From positions 1 through 64,000 of the forward strand of contig JAHELC010000004.1 in assembly GCA_024644405.1 (NCBI GenBank): a stretch of 64,000 nt of DNA. Direction: 5' to 3'. The notes beneath the pieces were generated by a model. That model was not told where the DNA came from. It saw only the letters and a list, made by a program, of their open reading frames with translations, and ran no database searches. This DNA is from Nitrospinaceae bacterium (lineage in GTDB: Bacteria > Nitrospinota > Nitrospinia > Nitrospinales > Nitrospinaceae). Below, piece by piece: positions 25,661 through 35,321 of this stretch (position 1 is the stretch's first letter; each line of letters begins with the position of its first letter). The position numbers and the translations under genes were made by a program.

Positions 25661-27004
25661 ATGCGCTATATCCCGCACACTGAAACCGATATCCGGGAAA
25701 TGCTCTCCGCCATCGGCATCAAGGAGATCGAGGAGCTGTTCCACAGCATCCCTGAGGCCCTGCGCCTGGAGGCTCCTCTGGATCTGCCCCCGGCACTGCC
25801 GGAGGCAGACCTCACCCAGGCCCTGAACCAGCTGGCGAGCCGCAATGTGAATCTTGCTGAATGTGCGGTGTTTCTCGGTGCCGGGGCGTACCGGCATTTT
25901 ACGCCGTCGGTGGTGAATCACCTTCTCCTGCGCGGCGAGTTTCTGACCAGCTACACCCCTTACCAGCCGGAAGTCAGCCAGGGCACCCTGCAGGCCATCT
26001 TCGAGTTTCAAAGCTTCGTCTGCATGTTGACGGGTATGGAAATCGCCAACGCATCGATTTACGACGGTGCGTCTTCACTGGCGGAAGCGGTGCTTATGGC
26101 GCACCGCGTCAACAACCGGAGAGAGGTGTTAATGGCCCGCACCGTTCATCCTGAATACCGGCAGGTGGTGGAGACGTATACGCGGGGCATCGATTTCAAA
26201 ATTACTGAAGCGCCTTATCAGGAAAACGGCCAGACGGATTTGGACTTTATCAAACAGCACGTCACCGACGACACCAGTTCGGTGGTGATCCAGTCCCCCA
26301 ACTTTTTCGGCATCGTGGAACAGTACGCCGAGTTGGGAGAATTTTTGAAAGACAAGGATACCCTGCTGATCGTCGTCGTGGCGGAAGCGACGTCGTTGGG
26401 CATCCTGAAACCGCCCGGCGAACGCGGAGCGGATGTTGTCGTCGGGGAAGGGCAGGGTTGGGGATTGCCGGTGTCCTATGGTGGACCCCATGTCGGATTT
26501 TTCGCAACCCGGGAGCCGTTTTTCCGGCAGATTCCGGGTCGCATCGCGGGCGAGACGGTCGACCGCGCCGGCCAACGTTCCTATGCACTGACCCTGGTGA
26601 CGCGCGAGCAATTTATCCGCCGTGAAAAGGCGACGTCCAACATTTGTACCAATCAGGGCCTGTGTGCGCTGGCGGCGACGATCTGGCTGGCGGCGATGGG
26701 CAAGCAGGGGGTGCGGGACCTGGCCCTCCAGAATCTGAAAACCGCCCACGCACTCAAGGATAAACTGCAACAGTTAAAGGGGTTCAGCCTCAGGTTCCCG
26801 GCTGATACCTATAATGAATTCGTGCTGGAATGCCCCGGCCCGGCGCAGGAACTTCACGCCAAACTGCTGGAAGCCCATATCGTTGCCGGTCTGCCGTTGG
26901 GGAATTTTTATCCTGAACTGGATCATTGTCTCCTCCTCTGCGCGACCGAAATGAATTCTCTGGAGAGCCTGGATCACTTCGCCGGCCAACTGGGTTCCAT
27001 GTAA
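25661..27004 (+). CDS. gcvPA: Glycine dehydrogenase (decarboxylating) subunit 1
   Basis: A 447-residue alpha subunit of the split-type P protein, with start MRYIPHTETDIREML and landmarks FLGAGAYRHFTPSVVNHLLLR, ASIYDGASSLAEAVLMA and GLPVSYGGPHVGFFA. It works with the GcvPB subunit, which carries the pyridoxal-phosphate lysine. GcvPB is not downstream: an HU gene follows after 218 bases. The partner must be elsewhere in the genome. The gap 27005-27222 contains a GC hairpin (CCGGGG/CCCCGG near 27031-27046) with no T run. Confidence 0.95.
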   Translation: MRYIPHTETDIREMLSAIGIKEIEELFHSIPEALRLEAPLDLPPALPEADLTQALNQLASRNVNLAECAVFLGAGAYRHFTPSVVNHLLLRGEFLTSYTPYQPEVSQGTLQAIFEFQSFVCMLTGMEIANASIYDGASSLAEAVLMAHRVNNRREVLMARTVHPEYRQVVETYTRGIDFKITEAPYQENGQTDLDFIKQHVTDDTSSVVIQSPNFFGIVEQYAELGEFLKDKDTLLIVVVAEATSLGILKPPGERGADVVVGEGQGWGLPVSYGGPHVGFFATREPFFRQIPGRIAGETVDRAGQRSYALTLVTREQFIRREKATSNICTNQGLCALAATIWLAAMGKQGVRDLALQNLKTAHALKDKLQQLKGFSLRFPADTYNEFVLECPGPAQELHAKLLEAHIVAGLPLGNFYPELDHCLLLCATEMNSLESLDHFAGQLGSM

Positions 27005-27709: not shown

Positions 27710-29083
27710 TTATTTGATTTTACCGGTCAGTTCTTCGGCGGGATAGGTGAGGATTTCGGAGAGGGTGGGATGGTAATGCGGCATGTCTAAGAGGTCTTTC
27801 ACCGTGCCTTTAAAGTACATCACGGCTATCAGTTGATGAATCAGCTCGCCGCCTTCGGGACCGGTGATGTGGCCGCCGAGGATCTCCCCGCTTTTCGGAC
27901 CGCACAACAGTTTCACATGGCCGTGCGTCTCTCCCAGGCACAACGATTTTCCGTGATCGTCGAACGGATACGACGCGGCGAGATATTCGATCCTTTTCTT
28001 CTTGCAATCCTTTTCGGTGAGGCCGACGCTGGCTACCTGCGGATCGGTGAACACCACGTTGGTGGTGAGGCGTTCGTCGACTTCGCGCGGTGTTTGACCA
28101 AGATGCACCGCGTTCCACCCGGCGACTTCCCCCTGCTGGATGGCGATGTGCACCACTTCGTGCAGACCGTTGACGTCCCCGACTGCAAAGATGTGCGGCT
28201 GACTGGTCTGCATGGCGCAATCGACGCCGATACCCCACTCTTTCATTTCAACTCCCGCGGCGTCGAGGTTCAACCCGTCGGTATTCGGGCGGCGTCCCAG
28301 CGCATCCAGGAGGCACGCGGCGGAGACCGATTTCTCCTCACCTTCGTGCAGGAAACGGACGGTTTTATGATTCCCCTCGGCGGACACCTGTAGCAACTGT
28401 GTGCTGGTGTAAACGGCCATGCCCTCTTCACGGAACCGCGCTTCGACCGGCTGTGCCAGATCTTCATCAGTGAACGACAGGATGTGTGGGCTGCGCTGGA
28501 TCAACGTCACCCGCGTGCCGATGCGTTGGTAAAACTGTGCCAGTTCCGTAGCGACGGGTCCCGCGCCCAGCACGATCATCGACTGCGGAAACTCTTTCAA
28601 CTCCAGTACGTCGTCGCTGGTGATGTAGCCCGTTGCCTCCAGGCCGGGAACGGGAACCTGATCGATGACCGATCCAGTGGCAATGATGAACGATTTCGCG
28701 GACAGCCGTTGTCCTCCGGCTTTGATTTCATGGGGCGACACGAAAGAGGCTTTGTCCTGTATCAAGGTGAAGCGTGGGTTCTTGAGTTGCCCGATGCGGT
28801 AGTCGGCGAATTCGCGGATGAGTTTGTTTTTGCGATCGATGATGGCCGCCAGATCGGCCCGGACACCCGACGCCGACAGTCCGAACTCCCCGGCGCGTTG
28901 CATGAGGGCCATGATGTCCGACGAGCGCAAAATGGTTTTGGTGGGCATGCACCCGCGCAGGATGCACAGGCCGCCGAGCGGGCCGGGATCGACGATCGCC
29001 ACCCTGGCGCCTGCCGATTGTGCCGTATCCGCCGCAGCGTAACCGCCGGAGCCGCCGCCGATGACGATGACATCGTAATCCAT
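27710..29083 (-). CDS. FAD-dependent pyridine nucleotide-disulfide oxidoreductase
   Basis: A 457-residue flavoenzyme of the lipoamide dehydrogenase/mercuric reductase group. The N-terminal FAD site is MDYDVIVIGGGSGGYAAA; the redox disulfide is in GGLCILRGCMPTK (CX4C). A second Rossmann motif (VLGAGPVATELAQF) binds NAD(P)H, and the C-terminal dimerisation domain ends with HYHPTLSEIL carrying the usual HxHPTxxE-type motif. It lacks the typical GGTCLNVGCIPSK wording of E3, so the substrate is uncertain. ATG 29083 is taken as start; the longer frame runs through the TPR gene upstream and is rejected. Confidence 0.88.
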   Translation of the reverse strand: MDYDVIVIGGGSGGYAAADTAQSAGARVAIVDPGPLGGLCILRGCMPTKTILRSSDIMALMQRAGEFGLSASGVRADLAAIIDRKNKLIREFADYRIGQLKNPRFTLIQDKASFVSPHEIKAGGQRLSAKSFIIATGSVIDQVPVPGLEATGYITSDDVLELKEFPQSMIVLGAGPVATELAQFYQRIGTRVTLIQRSPHILSFTDEDLAQPVEARFREEGMAVYTSTQLLQVSAEGNHKTVRFLHEGEEKSVSAACLLDALGRRPNTDGLNLDAAGVEMKEWGIGVDCAMQTSQPHIFAVGDVNGLHEVVHIAIQQGEVAGWNAVHLGQTPREVDERLTTNVVFTDPQVASVGLTEKDCKKKRIEYLAASYPFDDHGKSLCLGETHGHVKLLCGPKSGEILGGHITGPEGGELIHQLIAVMYFKGTVKDLLDMPHYHPTLSEILTYPAEELTGKIK

Positions 29084-29150: not shown

Positions 29151-29675
29151 TTACTCGAAATCTTCCGGCGACAGGTTGAACTCTTTATAGCATTCCGTGA
29201 GCAGGCTGCCTGCCGTTTCCACCATGTGCAATTCTCCCTGTTCCTCGAACAGTTTTTTGGCGAGACGCAGGTGATGGATGGCCTCTTTGCCCTGCTTGAC
29301 GGAGTAATGTACCGTCGCCAGGTTGCTGTGAGCACGGGCGAAATTGGGATTGATCTTGAGTGCCTCCTGGTAATGCTTGACCGAGTCCTCGATCATATTC
29401 AACAGGTTGCAAATGAGCGCCAGGCTGTAATGGGCCATGACGTCGTCCGGTTTCAACTCCACCGCTTTTTGGAAACAAGGTAAAGCTTTGGCGTTTTGCT
29501 GGAGTTTGCCGTACCGGCTCCCCAGGTTGAACCAGGCCCGGAAGTGTTCGGGGTCCAAAGCCACGGATTGTTCATAAGCGGCGATAGCGCCTTCGTTGTC
29601 TCCGGCCCGGCCCAGGGTGACTCCTTTCTGGAACCAGCCTTCGGCACTTTGGGGCGTTGTCGACTCGGTAGTCAT
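29151..29675 (-). CDS. TPR-repeat protein
   Basis: A 174-residue protein of four to five tetratricopeptide repeats, e.g. AEGWFQKGVTLGRAGDNEGAIAAYEQSVALDPEH near 11-44 and VMAHYSLALICNLLNMIEDSVKHYQEALKINPNF near 79-112. It has no signal peptide. TPR units mediate protein-protein contacts; no partner is evident. It lies 67 bases upstream of the disulfide oxidoreductase on the same strand. Confidence 0.85.
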   Translation of the reverse strand: MTTESTTPQSAEGWFQKGVTLGRAGDNEGAIAAYEQSVALDPEHFRAWFNLGSRYGKLQQNAKALPCFQKAVELKPDDVMAHYSLALICNLLNMIEDSVKHYQEALKINPNFARAHSNLATVHYSVKQGKEAIHHLRLAKKLFEEQGELHMVETAGSLLTECYKEFNLSPEDFE

Positions 29676-30193: not shown

Positions 30194-30517
30194 ATGTCAG
30201 AAGTCCGCATATTAGATCTGGCCGATGCTCCGCAGGAGGGGCAGGGGAAACGGGTCGAGTTCAATCATCCTTACACCGAAATCCTTTATGCCCTGGGGGT
30301 GTATTTCGCCAAAGGCCGCTATTTGGCCATTATCGACGTCTGCAAGAAATGCAATTCCAGTCTGGCGCAGGGAAAGGTGAACGGCATGTACGCCCTGTGC
30401 GCACGGGAACAGCACGCCTGGCACATCAAATCCGGTCTCTTCAAATTCGACCGCACCCAGTCCCTTCCCACCTACCGCGTGACCGTCAAGGACGAGGGCC
30501 TGTATATCGAGATATGA
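30194..30517 (+). CDS. Rieske-fold-like protein with altered metal ligands
   Basis: A 107-residue soluble protein. The order of elements resembles a Rieske [2Fe-2S] domain: a first loop with C50-K-K-C53, a second loop with C69-A-R-E-Q-H74-A-W-H77, then LPTYRVTVKDEGLYIEI, which is the usual closing strand pair. In canonical Rieske proteins the ligands are CxH and CxxH; here the histidine positions hold Lys52 and Glu72. Cys53, His74 and His77 are nearby and could bind a different metal. It may be a non-Rieske relative or a repurposed fold. It lies 16 bases after the 91-residue gene and 23 bases before the PD40 lipoprotein. Confidence 0.55.
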   Translation: MSEVRILDLADAPQEGQGKRVEFNHPYTEILYALGVYFAKGRYLAIIDVCKKCNSSLAQGKVNGMYALCAREQHAWHIKSGLFKFDRTQSLPTYRVTVKDEGLYIEI

Positions 30518-31732: not shown

Positions 31733-32008
31733 CTATTCCCACTGTTCCAAAATGAAAGCATTGCCGTTCGCATCGCAAACCTTTTTCCCTCTGAGGCAGA
31801 TTTCAACCAGTTTGAGAGCCAGTTCTCTGGTTTGGCTTCCGCTATCTCCATACACGTTGAAGTCTTTACCCAGCAGTTCCGGAGATTCGACGCGGCAATA
31901 AAAATTCCTGTTCTCTGAGGTGGCAAACGGTCCCTCGATTTTAAAGCTGAACGGGCGTCGTTGCCCCTGTTCATCAATAAATGCGGTCAAATAATAAGGG
32001 TTGTTCAT
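31733..32008 (-). CDS. Small hypothetical protein
   Basis: A 91-residue soluble protein (MNNPYYLTAFIDEQGQRRPF...), with GGGGAGAA before the ATG. It contains three cysteines and alternating beta-type segments. No family is recognised. It converges with the PD40 lipoprotein gene 22 bases away. Confidence 0.6.
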   Translation of the reverse strand: MNNPYYLTAFIDEQGQRRPFSFKIEGPFATSENRNFYCRVESPELLGKDFNVYGDSGSQTRELALKLVEICLRGKKVCDANGNAFILEQWE

Positions 32009-32354: not shown

Positions 32355-33794
32355 TTACCGCCGCCAGGCGTGAAACTTTTGGATGAAATTCAGCAGGCCT
32401 GTGGGCGCATGGTTTTTTTTCCAGATGCCGGCGACGTATTTGTTGGCTTCCGCCATGGTGGGATAAATGTGGATGGTACTCAGAATCTGGTTCAGTCCGA
32501 GGCCCTGCTTCATGGCCAGCACGTATTCGGCCATCAAATCTCCCGCGTGGTAGCCGACAATGGTGACGCCCAGTATCTTGTCCTTGCCGGGCGGGGTCAA
32601 TACTTTTACATAACCCTTGTCCTCGCTGTCGGCGATGGCGCGGTCGAGGTCGTCGATGCCGTACGTCGCCACGTCGTAGGGGATGCCCTGTTCCTGCGCG
32701 TCTTTTTCGTTGAGGCCGACGCGTGCCACTTCCGGATCGGTGAACGTGGCCCACGGAATGACGCGGTAATCCACCTTGAATTTCTTGAAAGGACTGAACA
32801 ATGCATTGACCGCGCAGTACCAGGCCTGGTGGGCGGCGGTGTGGGTGAACTGAAACGGGCCCGCCACGTCGCCGCAGGCGTATATATTTTTGTGTGTGGG
32901 GGTTCTCAGGTATTGATCGACCTCCACCGTGCCGCGCGGTCCCAGCTTCACGCCGATCTCTTCCAGGCCGAAGCCTCTGGCGTTGGCGGCGCGGCCGACC
33001 GCGACCAGCAGTTGATCGAACTCCACCTGCTGCGTTGTCCCCTCTTTTTCCACCTGCATGTATTGTTTACCGTCCTGTACCACCACTTCCTTGCACTTGG
33101 CATTGACGCGCACGTCGACGCCATCAGCGAGGAATTTCTGGCGTACGGTACGGCTGGCTTCTTCGTCTTCGCGAATGAGGATGTCCGGCAGCATTTCAAC
33201 GAGGGTGACCTCGCTTCCCAGCCGTGCGAAACATTGCGCCAGCTCACACCCGATCGGGCCGCCACCCATCACCATGAGTTTCTTCGGCAGCTTGAGCAGG
33301 TTCCAGATGGTGTCCGTGGTCAGGTAGTCCACCTGATCGAGGCCGGGAATCGGCGGCACCGCAGGACGCGCGCCGGTGGCGATGATGATGTTTTTCGTGG
33401 TCAGCGTCTTGCCGTTCACCTCGATCTCGTGCGGAGAGAGAATTTGTGCGGAGCCGGTATAGCAGTCCACACCCAGTTTCGTGTAACGCTCGATGCTGTC
33501 GTGCGGTTCCACTTTTTTAATGACGTGGTGCACGCGCTCCATGACGTCCGGAAACTCGAAATCCACCTGCGCCGATTTGAGGCCGAAGTCCTGCGACCGT
33601 TTGATGTAGGACAGGATTTTCCCGGTGCGAATGAGCGCTTTGCTGGGCACGCATCCGGTGTGCAGGCAATCGCCGCCCATCTTGTGTTTTTCGATCAGCG
33701 CGACTTTGGCCTTGACGACCGAGCCGATGTAAGCCGACACCAGCCCCGCCGAGCCGGCGCCGATCACGATGAGGTTGTAATCTTTTTTCGCCAT
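32355..33794 (-). CDS. Dihydrolipoamide dehydrogenase / mercuric-reductase-like flavoprotein
   Basis: A 479-residue FAD enzyme. It starts MAKKDYNLIVIGAGSAGLVSAY (FAD site); the redox disulfide is in GGDCLHTGCVPSK (CX4C), the NAD site is VMGGGPIGCELAQCF, and the second FAD segment is IYACGDVAGPFQFTHTAAHQAW. The C-terminal HIYPTMAEAN replaces the HAHPTLSE catalytic motif of E3: the first catalytic His is kept as His-Ile-Tyr-Pro, as in mercuric-reductase relatives. No merR, merT or lipoyl-dependent complex is nearby. ATG 33794 is favoured over the in-frame ATG at 33803. Confidence 0.88.
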   Translation of the reverse strand: MAKKDYNLIVIGAGSAGLVSAYIGSVVKAKVALIEKHKMGGDCLHTGCVPSKALIRTGKILSYIKRSQDFGLKSAQVDFEFPDVMERVHHVIKKVEPHDSIERYTKLGVDCYTGSAQILSPHEIEVNGKTLTTKNIIIATGARPAVPPIPGLDQVDYLTTDTIWNLLKLPKKLMVMGGGPIGCELAQCFARLGSEVTLVEMLPDILIREDEEASRTVRQKFLADGVDVRVNAKCKEVVVQDGKQYMQVEKEGTTQQVEFDQLLVAVGRAANARGFGLEEIGVKLGPRGTVEVDQYLRTPTHKNIYACGDVAGPFQFTHTAAHQAWYCAVNALFSPFKKFKVDYRVIPWATFTDPEVARVGLNEKDAQEQGIPYDVATYGIDDLDRAIADSEDKGYVKVLTPPGKDKILGVTIVGYHAGDLMAEYVLAMKQGLGLNQILSTIHIYPTMAEANKYVAGIWKKNHAPTGLLNFIQKFHAWRR

Positions 33795-33948: not shown

Positions 33949-34686
33949 CTAGTAGGTGATTTCGCCGCCGGAGATGCGGCGGGGAGTTTTGCCCAGGTCC
34001 AGCGGGTGGTCGGTGCCGGGGAGGATGGTGCCGTCGGGCGAGTACGGGCCGATCTTGCTCCAGGTGCCATACTGCAACTCGTTGACATATTCGATCTTCA
34101 CAATCGCTTTGGGGTTTTTGTAACCGTACTTGAACGGGACGATGACGCGCAGGGGAAACCCGTGTTCGTCGGACAACGGGGCGCCGTTCATTTGCGTGAC
34201 CCAAAGCGTGCGCGGATGGTTCAGGTCTGCGAGTGACAGGTGCTCGGTATAAATGTCGCCGCAGTGGAACACTACGCCGGTGGCTTCCGGTTGCGGCGGG
34301 CAGAGTTTCATCAGCTCGGAAAAATGGAAGCCGCTCCATTCCGCCTTGGCGGACCAGCACTCGACGCATTTCAGCCGCGAAGTTTGCGTCATCGTCGGCA
34401 GGCCTTTGAGTTGATCCAGTGTAAAGTGTTTCGGGGTTTCGCACAGACCGCCGACCTCCAGCGTCCAGTCTGCGGCTTTAATGCGTCTGAGGGGTTTCCA
34501 GTAATTGATGTAGAACTGCTTGAATTTGCCGACGCGGGTTTTGCCGACGAAATCGGTGCCCGTGAAATAATCCGGTTCGGCCCGTGCCGAACCCGGCCGG
34601 CTCCACCAGCCCTGGACGAATGCCGCGCAGAAGGCAAACGTGCGGGCCAGGAACGATCTTCGGTTTAATCGATCGAACGAACGCAT
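33949..34686 (-). CDS. Tat-exported YedY/MsrP-like molybdenum enzyme
   Basis: A 245-residue oxidoreductase of the sulfite oxidase fold, molybdopterin domain only. The twin-arginine signal LNRRSFLARTFAF is at residues 8-20. The Mo-ligand cysteine is in RLKCVECWSAKAEWSG near 106-121. HGFPLRVIVPFKYGYKNPKAIVKIEY near 173-198 is a family signature. By analogy it reduces or oxidises a small periplasmic substrate such as methionine sulfoxide or sulfite; no msrQ-type haem partner is adjacent. ATG 34686 gives the Tat signal directly. It overlaps the upstream SUMF1-like gene by 22 bases. Confidence 0.85.
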   Translation of the reverse strand: MRSFDRLNRRSFLARTFAFCAAFVQGWWSRPGSARAEPDYFTGTDFVGKTRVGKFKQFYINYWKPLRRIKAADWTLEVGGLCETPKHFTLDQLKGLPTMTQTSRLKCVECWSAKAEWSGFHFSELMKLCPPQPEATGVVFHCGDIYTEHLSLADLNHPRTLWVTQMNGAPLSDEHGFPLRVIVPFKYGYKNPKAIVKIEYVNELQYGTWSKIGPYSPDGTILPGTDHPLDLGKTPRRISGGEITY

Positions 34687-35321
34687 CGGAATCCCAGAAA
34701 GCTGAGCCGTTCCCCCGGAGGGATGGTGGCTTTTTCGAAGGCTTTGCTGTATTCGAAATCGAGGTGCAGGTTCCACAGGCCGCCGCGAATGATTTTCAGC
34801 GGCCCCTGGGCATCGGCGGTCCATTCCCAGACCGATCCCGCCATGTCGTGAATGCCGTAAGGGGAGACATCCTGTTTATTGAACCCCACCTTTTTTTTGA
34901 CCACGCCGGAGTAAAAAGGATGCGGACGTTTTTTGGGTTTGTGGTCGCCCCAGGGGTAGATGAACCCGTATTCTCCCCGCGCCGCTTTTTCCCATTCCGG
35001 CTCGCTGGGCAACCGGCCTCCAATTTTATTGCAGTATTCTTTGGCCAGGTACCAGGTGACTTTGGTGACCGGATGCCGGGCCGCCCCTTTACGGAAACGG
35101 TGGTCGGGAAACTGTGCCTGGAACTCCTCGTTGGTGACCTCGTTCAGGTCGATGAGAAACGGTCCGAGGAACAGACGCCGCTCCGGTCCGTGGGGCGACT
35201 GGTTTCCTTTCCCCATAGTGAACGGACCTTCCGGGATCAACACCATGGACGAGGCAGACGCGATGACGGGGAGGCCGAGCGACACAAGGACGATCCAGCT
35301 GGCAAGACGAAGTAAGCTCAT
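34665..35321 (-). CDS. Secreted SUMF1/FGE-fold protein
   Basis: A 218-residue protein with a signal peptide (LLRLASWIVLVSLGLPVIASA). The formylglycine-generating-enzyme fold is shown by FLIDLNEVTNEEF, RLPSEPEWEKAARG, YPWGD, VSPYGIHDMAGSVWEWTAD and LSFLGFRCV. The catalytic cysteine pair of true FGE (in RGGSWxC...C) is missing: the segment reads RGGLWNLHLDFEYSKAF. It is therefore a structural or binding relative, not a sulfatase activator. It overlaps the Mo-enzyme gene by 22 bases, which suggests the two act together. Confidence 0.85.
   Translation of the reverse strand: MSLLRLASWIVLVSLGLPVIASASSMVLIPEGPFTMGKGNQSPHGPERRLFLGPFLIDLNEVTNEEFQAQFPDHRFRKGAARHPVTKVTWYLAKEYCNKIGGRLPSEPEWEKAARGEYGFIYPWGDHKPKKRPHPFYSGVVKKKVGFNKQDVSPYGIHDMAGSVWEWTADAQGPLKIIRGGLWNLHLDFEYSKAFEKATIPPGERLSFLGFRCVRSID

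Follow-up and report, generated by a model that had tools for sequence, protein, structure and literature searches.

The window analysed here, i.e., the whole stretch of 64,000 nucleotides, encodes a 107-residue protein with a Rieske fold in which the ligands of the metal site appear to have been relocated (P1; 30194..30517, + strand; identified from the ORF translation, profiles, a structural model and alignment). The pattern conserved in the aligned family reads C-x2-C ... C-x4-[C/H]. We see about even chances that P1 is a cytoplasmic Rieske-fold protein that no longer carries the [2Fe-2S](Cys)2(His)2 cluster but binds one zinc or iron atom via Cys50, Cys53, Cys69 and Cys/His74, and that it is made together with a small partner, P2, encoded directly upstream.

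The translation of 30194-30517 agrees with what an initial sequence-only reading had described, i.e., an open reading frame with CxKC and CxxE...H...H in its two loops. The motifs are CKKC (Cys50, Lys52, Cys53) and CAREQHAWH (Cys69, Glu72, His74, His77), and no signal sequence is visible. The genome carrying the window has a size of 2.98 Mb and is 96% complete. When the window copy is compared with those of five congeners, dN ranges from 0.085 to 0.135 and dS from 0.40 to 1.29 (dN/dS about 0.07-0.22). Across the 58 full-length orthologues, the mean pairwise identity is 0.55 (minimum 0.33). Given the low dN relative to dS and this number of full-length orthologues, we consider P1 a real gene. 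Contamination or misassembly of a metagenome-assembled genome is ruled out as its source, since P1 is also present in three single-contig genomes (G010, G047, G057).

Profile and model evidence both assign P1 to the Rieske fold, and here the profile evidence is decisive. In a profile-profile comparison (hhalign), the P1 family matches five canonical Rieske ferredoxins from its own phylum with 99.5% and an E of 5e-23. The respective alignment runs without gaps from residue 31 to the C-terminus and thereby through both loops. The AlphaFold2 model, built from six close sequences, is of moderate quality (pLDDT 70, pTM 0.62) and poorest in and after the loops (residues 51-90, pLDDT 53-58). Searching the PDB with this model using Foldseek, the best 50 of 174 matches (E <= 10) are all Rieske or NirD proteins, with 1/174 at E <= 0.001; the fold matches include the NirD-type structures 3c0d, 2jza, 4aiv and 2jo6. 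Structural superposition with VIA gives a Z of 7.9 over 84 residues (rmsd 5.2) for 2i7f, a value below 8 that is by itself not decisive for the fold, and 2.0-2.4 A over 57-67 residues for several other structures. That is, profile, model and structure matches place P1 in the Rieske fold superfamily, i.e., a barrel with two ligand loops. The sequence-only reading had proposed a Rieske domain with both loops kept and a structure prediction in comparison with NirD and Rieske ferredoxins; the prediction, moderate as the model is, and the profiles bear the domain out.

Among the Pfam and NCBIfam models tried, P1 passes no curated family cut-off. Searched against Pfam as a single sequence, the window P1 gives no match at E <= 1 and stays below the curated cut-off of the Pfam Rieske model PF00355, which is matched by 8/22 aligned family members at E <= 0.1 (best 2.9e-4). 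The NCBIfam model HcaC (NF007422) is matched by the window P1 at E 8e-8, with 32.3 bits being below the curated cut-off of 113, and by all 22 aligned members at E <= 0.01. For the NirD model TIGR02378, the window P1 reaches 12.6 bits, also below the respective cut-off of 74.65, and half of the aligned members (11/22) match at E <= 0.01. PDB searches identify 2i7f at E 0.019 for the single sequence and Rieske ferredoxins from E 1.2e-6 for the family profile.

To count the metal-ligand columns, we used the 58 full-length P1 rows from 57 genomes, where G064 provides two rows and the partial copies of G016 and G055 are left out. All codon positions given in the following are on the + strand. Within the profile-profile alignment, Lys52 (30347..30349) and Glu72 (30407..30409) are found opposite the canonical histidines, Cys53 (30350..30352) opposite the residue that follows the first His, and His74 (30413..30415) at +5 from Cys69; the PDB matches 2i7f and 2e4p provide the same columns. 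The inner cysteines of loop 1 (Cys50; 30341..30343) and loop 2 (Cys69; 30398..30400) are present in 58/58 rows, and so is Cys53, the proposed new ligand of loop 1. The canonical His column of loop 1 is occupied by Lys in 16, Cys in 15 and Ser in 10 rows besides others, with His in 2/58. In loop 2, it contains Glu (34), Asp (14), Gln (7) and others (3, of which His 1). CxH and CxxH, the motifs of the Rieske [2Fe-2S] cluster, occur together in 0/58 rows, and the replacement of both canonical histidines claimed for the window protein is confirmed. Two loci (L009, L013) show CKHC at residues 50-53, i.e., the canonical His together with the new Cys.

Column 74, the proposed new ligand position of loop 2, holds Cys in 44, His in 13 and Thr in 1 of the rows. 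The only Thr74 orthologue (L037) has a His at 77 and a Cys at 83. Counting +5 and +7 of loop 2 by the bovine Cys numbering, residue 74 falls into the column of Ser163 of the bc1 Rieske protein and Trp76 into that of Tyr165. PMC12445004 describes hydrogen bonds of these two bc1 residues, that of Ser163 to a cluster sulfide and that of Tyr165 to S-gamma of the first ligand cysteine.

In total, ten columns are invariant among the 58 rows (M1, P13, H25, T28, Y32, C50, C53, C69, G81, Y94). The chance of finding all three Cys among them is 6e-4 if the 107 columns are exchangeable, with Cys being often conserved anyway. His25 (30266..30268) is part of a six-residue loop (25-30) that is absent from the canonical ferredoxins compared; it may cap the site or act as an extra or alternative ligand.

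The sequence-only reading had suggested that Cys50, Cys53, Cys69, His74 and His77 could form a different site and had proposed a family alignment to see whether C53, H74 and H77 are conserved. The cysteines (58/58) and Cys or His at 74 (57/58) survive this comparison, but His77 has to be dropped from the ligand set, as its column contains Asn in 44, His in 9 and Ser in 5 rows; the invariant His25 had gone unnoticed. Cys83 was also considered. It is present in 48/58 rows, yet several canonical paralogues (e.g., L095-L098, L101) also have a Cys at the equivalent position behind the loop-2 Gly, such that Cys83 is, judging from the alignment, probably inherited and outside the new site. Disulfides in place of a metal leave His at 74 unexplained. 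An exchange between Cys and His is expected of a metal ligand but not of a disulfide partner, and we read residue 74 accordingly.

The whole-genome search for the P1 family covered one phylum (Nitrospinota, 77 genomes). At E <= 1e-3, the family is found in 59/64 genomes of the order and 0/13 outside, and a profile search of these 13 genomes also yields no P1 relative. According to PMC3578206, the group to which this order belongs includes marine nitrite oxidizers; the passages covered hold nothing on P1. A contig search with the single P1 sequence returns 5 relatives, all from congeners. The 22-row P1 profile has 0 relatives among viral contigs, phages are without match at E 0.01, and plasmids without match to the P1 query at E 1e-5. 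Using a Cys74 orthologue as query, 4 weak partial matches to plasmids are obtained (E 2e-3 to 7e-3), one of which is annotated as a ferredoxin subunit.

CxH/CxxH is retained by each of the 46 other Rieske loci inspected across these genomes, so the relocated ligands are no lineage-wide quirk. The 46 loci comprise 4 from the window's genome, 35 secondary matches of the phylum search and 7 from genomes re-searched by profile. In one of the loci of the window's genome (L087; G000:C40:27767-27991), the canonical Rieske domain is located close to the beginning of an open frame of 538 residues and is possibly part of a larger fused redox enzyme. In a tree computed with a quick method from few columns, with canonical rows from Nitrospinota only, the 58 P1 rows form one group (SH-aLRT 99) next to 10 canonical proteins. 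On this tree, one change suffices to account for Cys74 versus His74, which has therefore to be taken as one historical exchange and not as repeated proof.

P1 can be lost: within a single genus, G005 and G006 retain P2 without an intact P1 at the locus. For G006, an N-terminal P1 remnant is found that runs into unrelated sequence (L091; G006:C91:6441-6521, - strand); L090 is the respective locus of G005. The respective contig of G013 stops at P2, and in G048 (65% complete) and G063 (81% complete) neither P1 nor P2 is found. G064 contains two P2-P1 pairs (L038, G064:C5; L040, G064:C76), i.e., a duplication or a mixed bin.

P2 (29902..30177, + strand) is a protein of 91 residues with three predicted helices and no significant family match. 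It is located directly upstream of P1, with 16 nt between the two genes in the window. Every full-length P1 (58/58) is preceded by P2 on the same strand. The distance from the end of the P2 match to P1 is 12-27 nt for 57/58 loci and 121 nt for the remaining one (stop codon included). P2 is found in 61/77 genomes of the phylum, all within the order, i.e., the P2-P1 pair is nearly universal there. The protein is strongly conserved, with D58, R73, E77 and others present in 58/58 sequences; its C-terminal part is conserved around FRWDLEKYYRDRYGPYLP. Concerning family and fold, only insignificant matches were obtained (Pfam E 0.085, NCBIfam E 0.088, Foldseek best E 3.3 for a moderate model with pLDDT 73). 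A coupling of P2 His59 loss to P1 loss is ruled out, given that Arg59 is also found in L009 and L013, which keep P1.

A PD40 protein that, judged by eye, seems to carry a lipobox is encoded 23 nt after P1 (30541..31710, + strand). The operon of P1 with the 91-residue protein and this gene, as originally proposed, is correct with respect to adjacency and to the former gene. The PD40 gene, in contrast, adjoins P1 in 3/58 loci, all of the window's genus, which rules it out as a functional partner. In a separate count, it is present in 1/41 loci with at least 1700 bases downstream, a set that does not include the window locus (1500 bases). In the 48 longer loci, inspection by eye of the ORFs downstream of P1 revealed no third conserved operon gene, and P2 alone is the conserved same-strand partner. 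In some members of one family (L077, L078, L081, L084, L085 and others), P1 is followed on its strand by a gene of about 132 residues that starts with MSLDL...VVTVRP.

Two divergent neighbours are likewise frequent, namely a TPR protein (29151..29675, - strand; 56/56 loci with enough upstream sequence) and a dihydrolipoyl-dehydrogenase-like flavoprotein (27710..29083, - strand; 43/44 such loci). The latter lies near gcvPA (25661-27004) and may thus be the L-protein of glycine cleavage. Together with a second dihydrolipoyl-dehydrogenase/MerA-like flavoprotein (32355-33794, - strand), it flanks the P2-P1 pair. Another protein of 91 residues (31733-32008, - strand) has no Pfam or NCBIfam match and is encoded close to P1 in the window's genus only. 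Further away, the start of an MsrP-like molybdopterin protein (33949-34686, - strand) overlaps the end of a protein with EgtB/GldK-like matches (34665-35321, - strand); judged by eye, the latter seems to have a signal sequence. A scan of 8 neighbouring proteins gives no match to an oxygenase or to NirB.

From the fold, the ligand changes, their conservation and the constant P2-P1 pair, we infer metal binding, its nuclearity, the identity of the metal and a contact with P2 as follows. The inner cysteines of both loops (Cys50, Cys69) would stay in place as ligands. The second ligand of loop 1 would be shifted by one residue, turning C-x-H into C-x2-C, i.e., a knuckle as in zinc ribbons or rubredoxin. 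In loop 2, the respective shift would be two residues (C-x2-H to C-x4-C/H), such that the ligand role would pass to residue 74, which corresponds to a side chain in contact with the cluster of bc1 Rieske proteins. One tetrahedral metal ion, either zinc or iron, would then be held by Cys50, Cys53, Cys69 and Cys/His74. If the metal is zinc, P1 would act as a stabilised binding module, probably towards P2, and have a structural or docking role; an iron site would make it a small electron carrier similar to rubredoxin. The interchange of Cys and His at residue 74 leans towards zinc, which we consider no less likely than iron. Being made together with P2, P1 would most likely work on or with it.

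The closest precedent we can draw on is an engineered one. As told in PMC2946596, the H44I/K45C/H64C variant of the archaeal Rieske ferredoxin ARF (Iwasaki, Kounosu and Tao 2005) contains a mononuclear Fe(Cys)4 site. Its K45 is at +3 from the inner Cys42, which is the column of P1 Cys53, and the C-x2-C of loop 1 is present in 58/58 P1 sequences. By analogy, the loop-1 spacing and this counterpart favour a mononuclear site in P1. The analogy covers loop 1 only: the engineered C-x2-C of loop 2 is not found in P1, which has C-x4-[C/H] in 57/58 rows and no Cys at column 72. A bolder version, in which nature turned a Rieske [2Fe-2S] protein into a mononuclear iron protein by the engineers' loop-1 shift, and this new kind of one-electron carrier serves with P2 a core redox step of the order of Nitrospina and its nitrite-oxidizing relatives, we consider unlikely. 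Speaking against the single-metal site as proposed are Thr74 in L037, the invariant His25 as a potential ligand instead of residue 74, and the survival of P2 without P1 in two genomes.

NirD, the small subunit of assimilatory nitrite reductase, has a Rieske fold without the canonical cluster ligands. P1 might similarly be metal-free, with the fold used as a protein-binding or scaffold subunit as in enterobacterial NirD and the cysteines being structural or redox thiols. The NirD structures among the fold matches and the 11/22 members matching TIGR02378 are in line with this, while the score of the window P1 far below the NirD cut-off is not. Furthermore, three invariant Cys plus a Cys/His position argue strongly for a metal, given that three Cys are an uneven number and His cannot pair, which renders a metal-free P1 quite improbable. 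We deem it still more improbable that the site is formed by Cys50, Cys53, Cys69 and His25, leaving residue 74 a second-sphere role only. Here, the 58/58 conservation of His25, Thr28 and Tyr32, the location of their six-residue insertion loop, which by strand order should be at the barrel end that carries the cluster loops, and the one orthologue with Thr74 have to be weighed against Cys or His at residue 74 in 57/58 rows, a column known to contact the cluster (PMC12445004). His25 could also owe its conservation to fold or partner binding.

The remaining alternative keeps a [2Fe-2S] cluster of Cys3His or Cys4 type, with Cys50 and Cys69 on one iron and Cys53 and Cys/His74 on the other, which would make P1 a ferredoxin of lower potential than Rieske proteins. 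Like Rieske proteins, P1 has two ligand-type residues in each loop, four in total, and 3Cys-1His [2Fe-2S] proteins exist, e.g., mitoNEET. On the same scaffold, H64C alone led to a low-potential 3Cys-1His [2Fe-2S] cluster in ARF, as PMC2946596 reports. According to the same review, however, ARF with the loop-1 C-x2-C is mononuclear, a Cys at the loop-1 His position itself gave no cluster, and the double His-to-Cys exchange largely failed. We therefore regard a retained cluster as rather unlikely and prefer the single metal ion.

Rieske cluster loops are similar in geometry to rubredoxin and zinc-ribbon scaffolds, and engineering has shown that a single metal atom can replace the two-iron cluster of a Rieske site after a few residue changes (PMC2946596). 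With an orthologous family that appears to have undergone such a switch naturally, the evolution of cluster versus single-metal sites could be tested directly. Among the titles and abstract openings covered by a literature search, no natural C-x2-C Rieske protein is named. P1 and P2 would also provide a lead to function in relatives of Nitrospina, a major marine nitrite oxidizer.

Compared to known systems, P1 resembles NirD in having a Rieske fold that lacks the canonical ligands, with NirD structures among its fold matches. It differs in its Cys set, as we know of no NirD with one of this kind, in the absence of NirB among the 8 neighbours scanned, and in its low NirD score. With rubredoxin and zinc ribbons, P1 shares a C-x2-C knuckle followed by a Gly-containing turn, but its scaffold is a complete Rieske barrel and its second knuckle is C-x4-C/H. 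The ARF triple mutant has in common with P1 the Rieske scaffold, the change from C-x-H to C-x2-C at the same loop-1 column and four ligand-type residues, two per loop. P1, in contrast, is natural and order-wide, has C-x4-C/H instead of C-x2-C in loop 2, and its metal site is a prediction from sequence. Finally, the Rieske-type ferredoxins of aromatic-ring dioxygenases (HcaC, BphF/BphA3, CarAc; 2i7f, 1fqt, 1vck) differ from P1, in which both His are replaced, Cys53 and Cys/His74 are new, an extra loop carries His25, and the 8 neighbour proteins scanned are without oxygenase match. Still, P1 shares with them its length, the barrel, both inner cysteines, a gapless alignment of the loops and an aromatic residue at +7 of loop 2.
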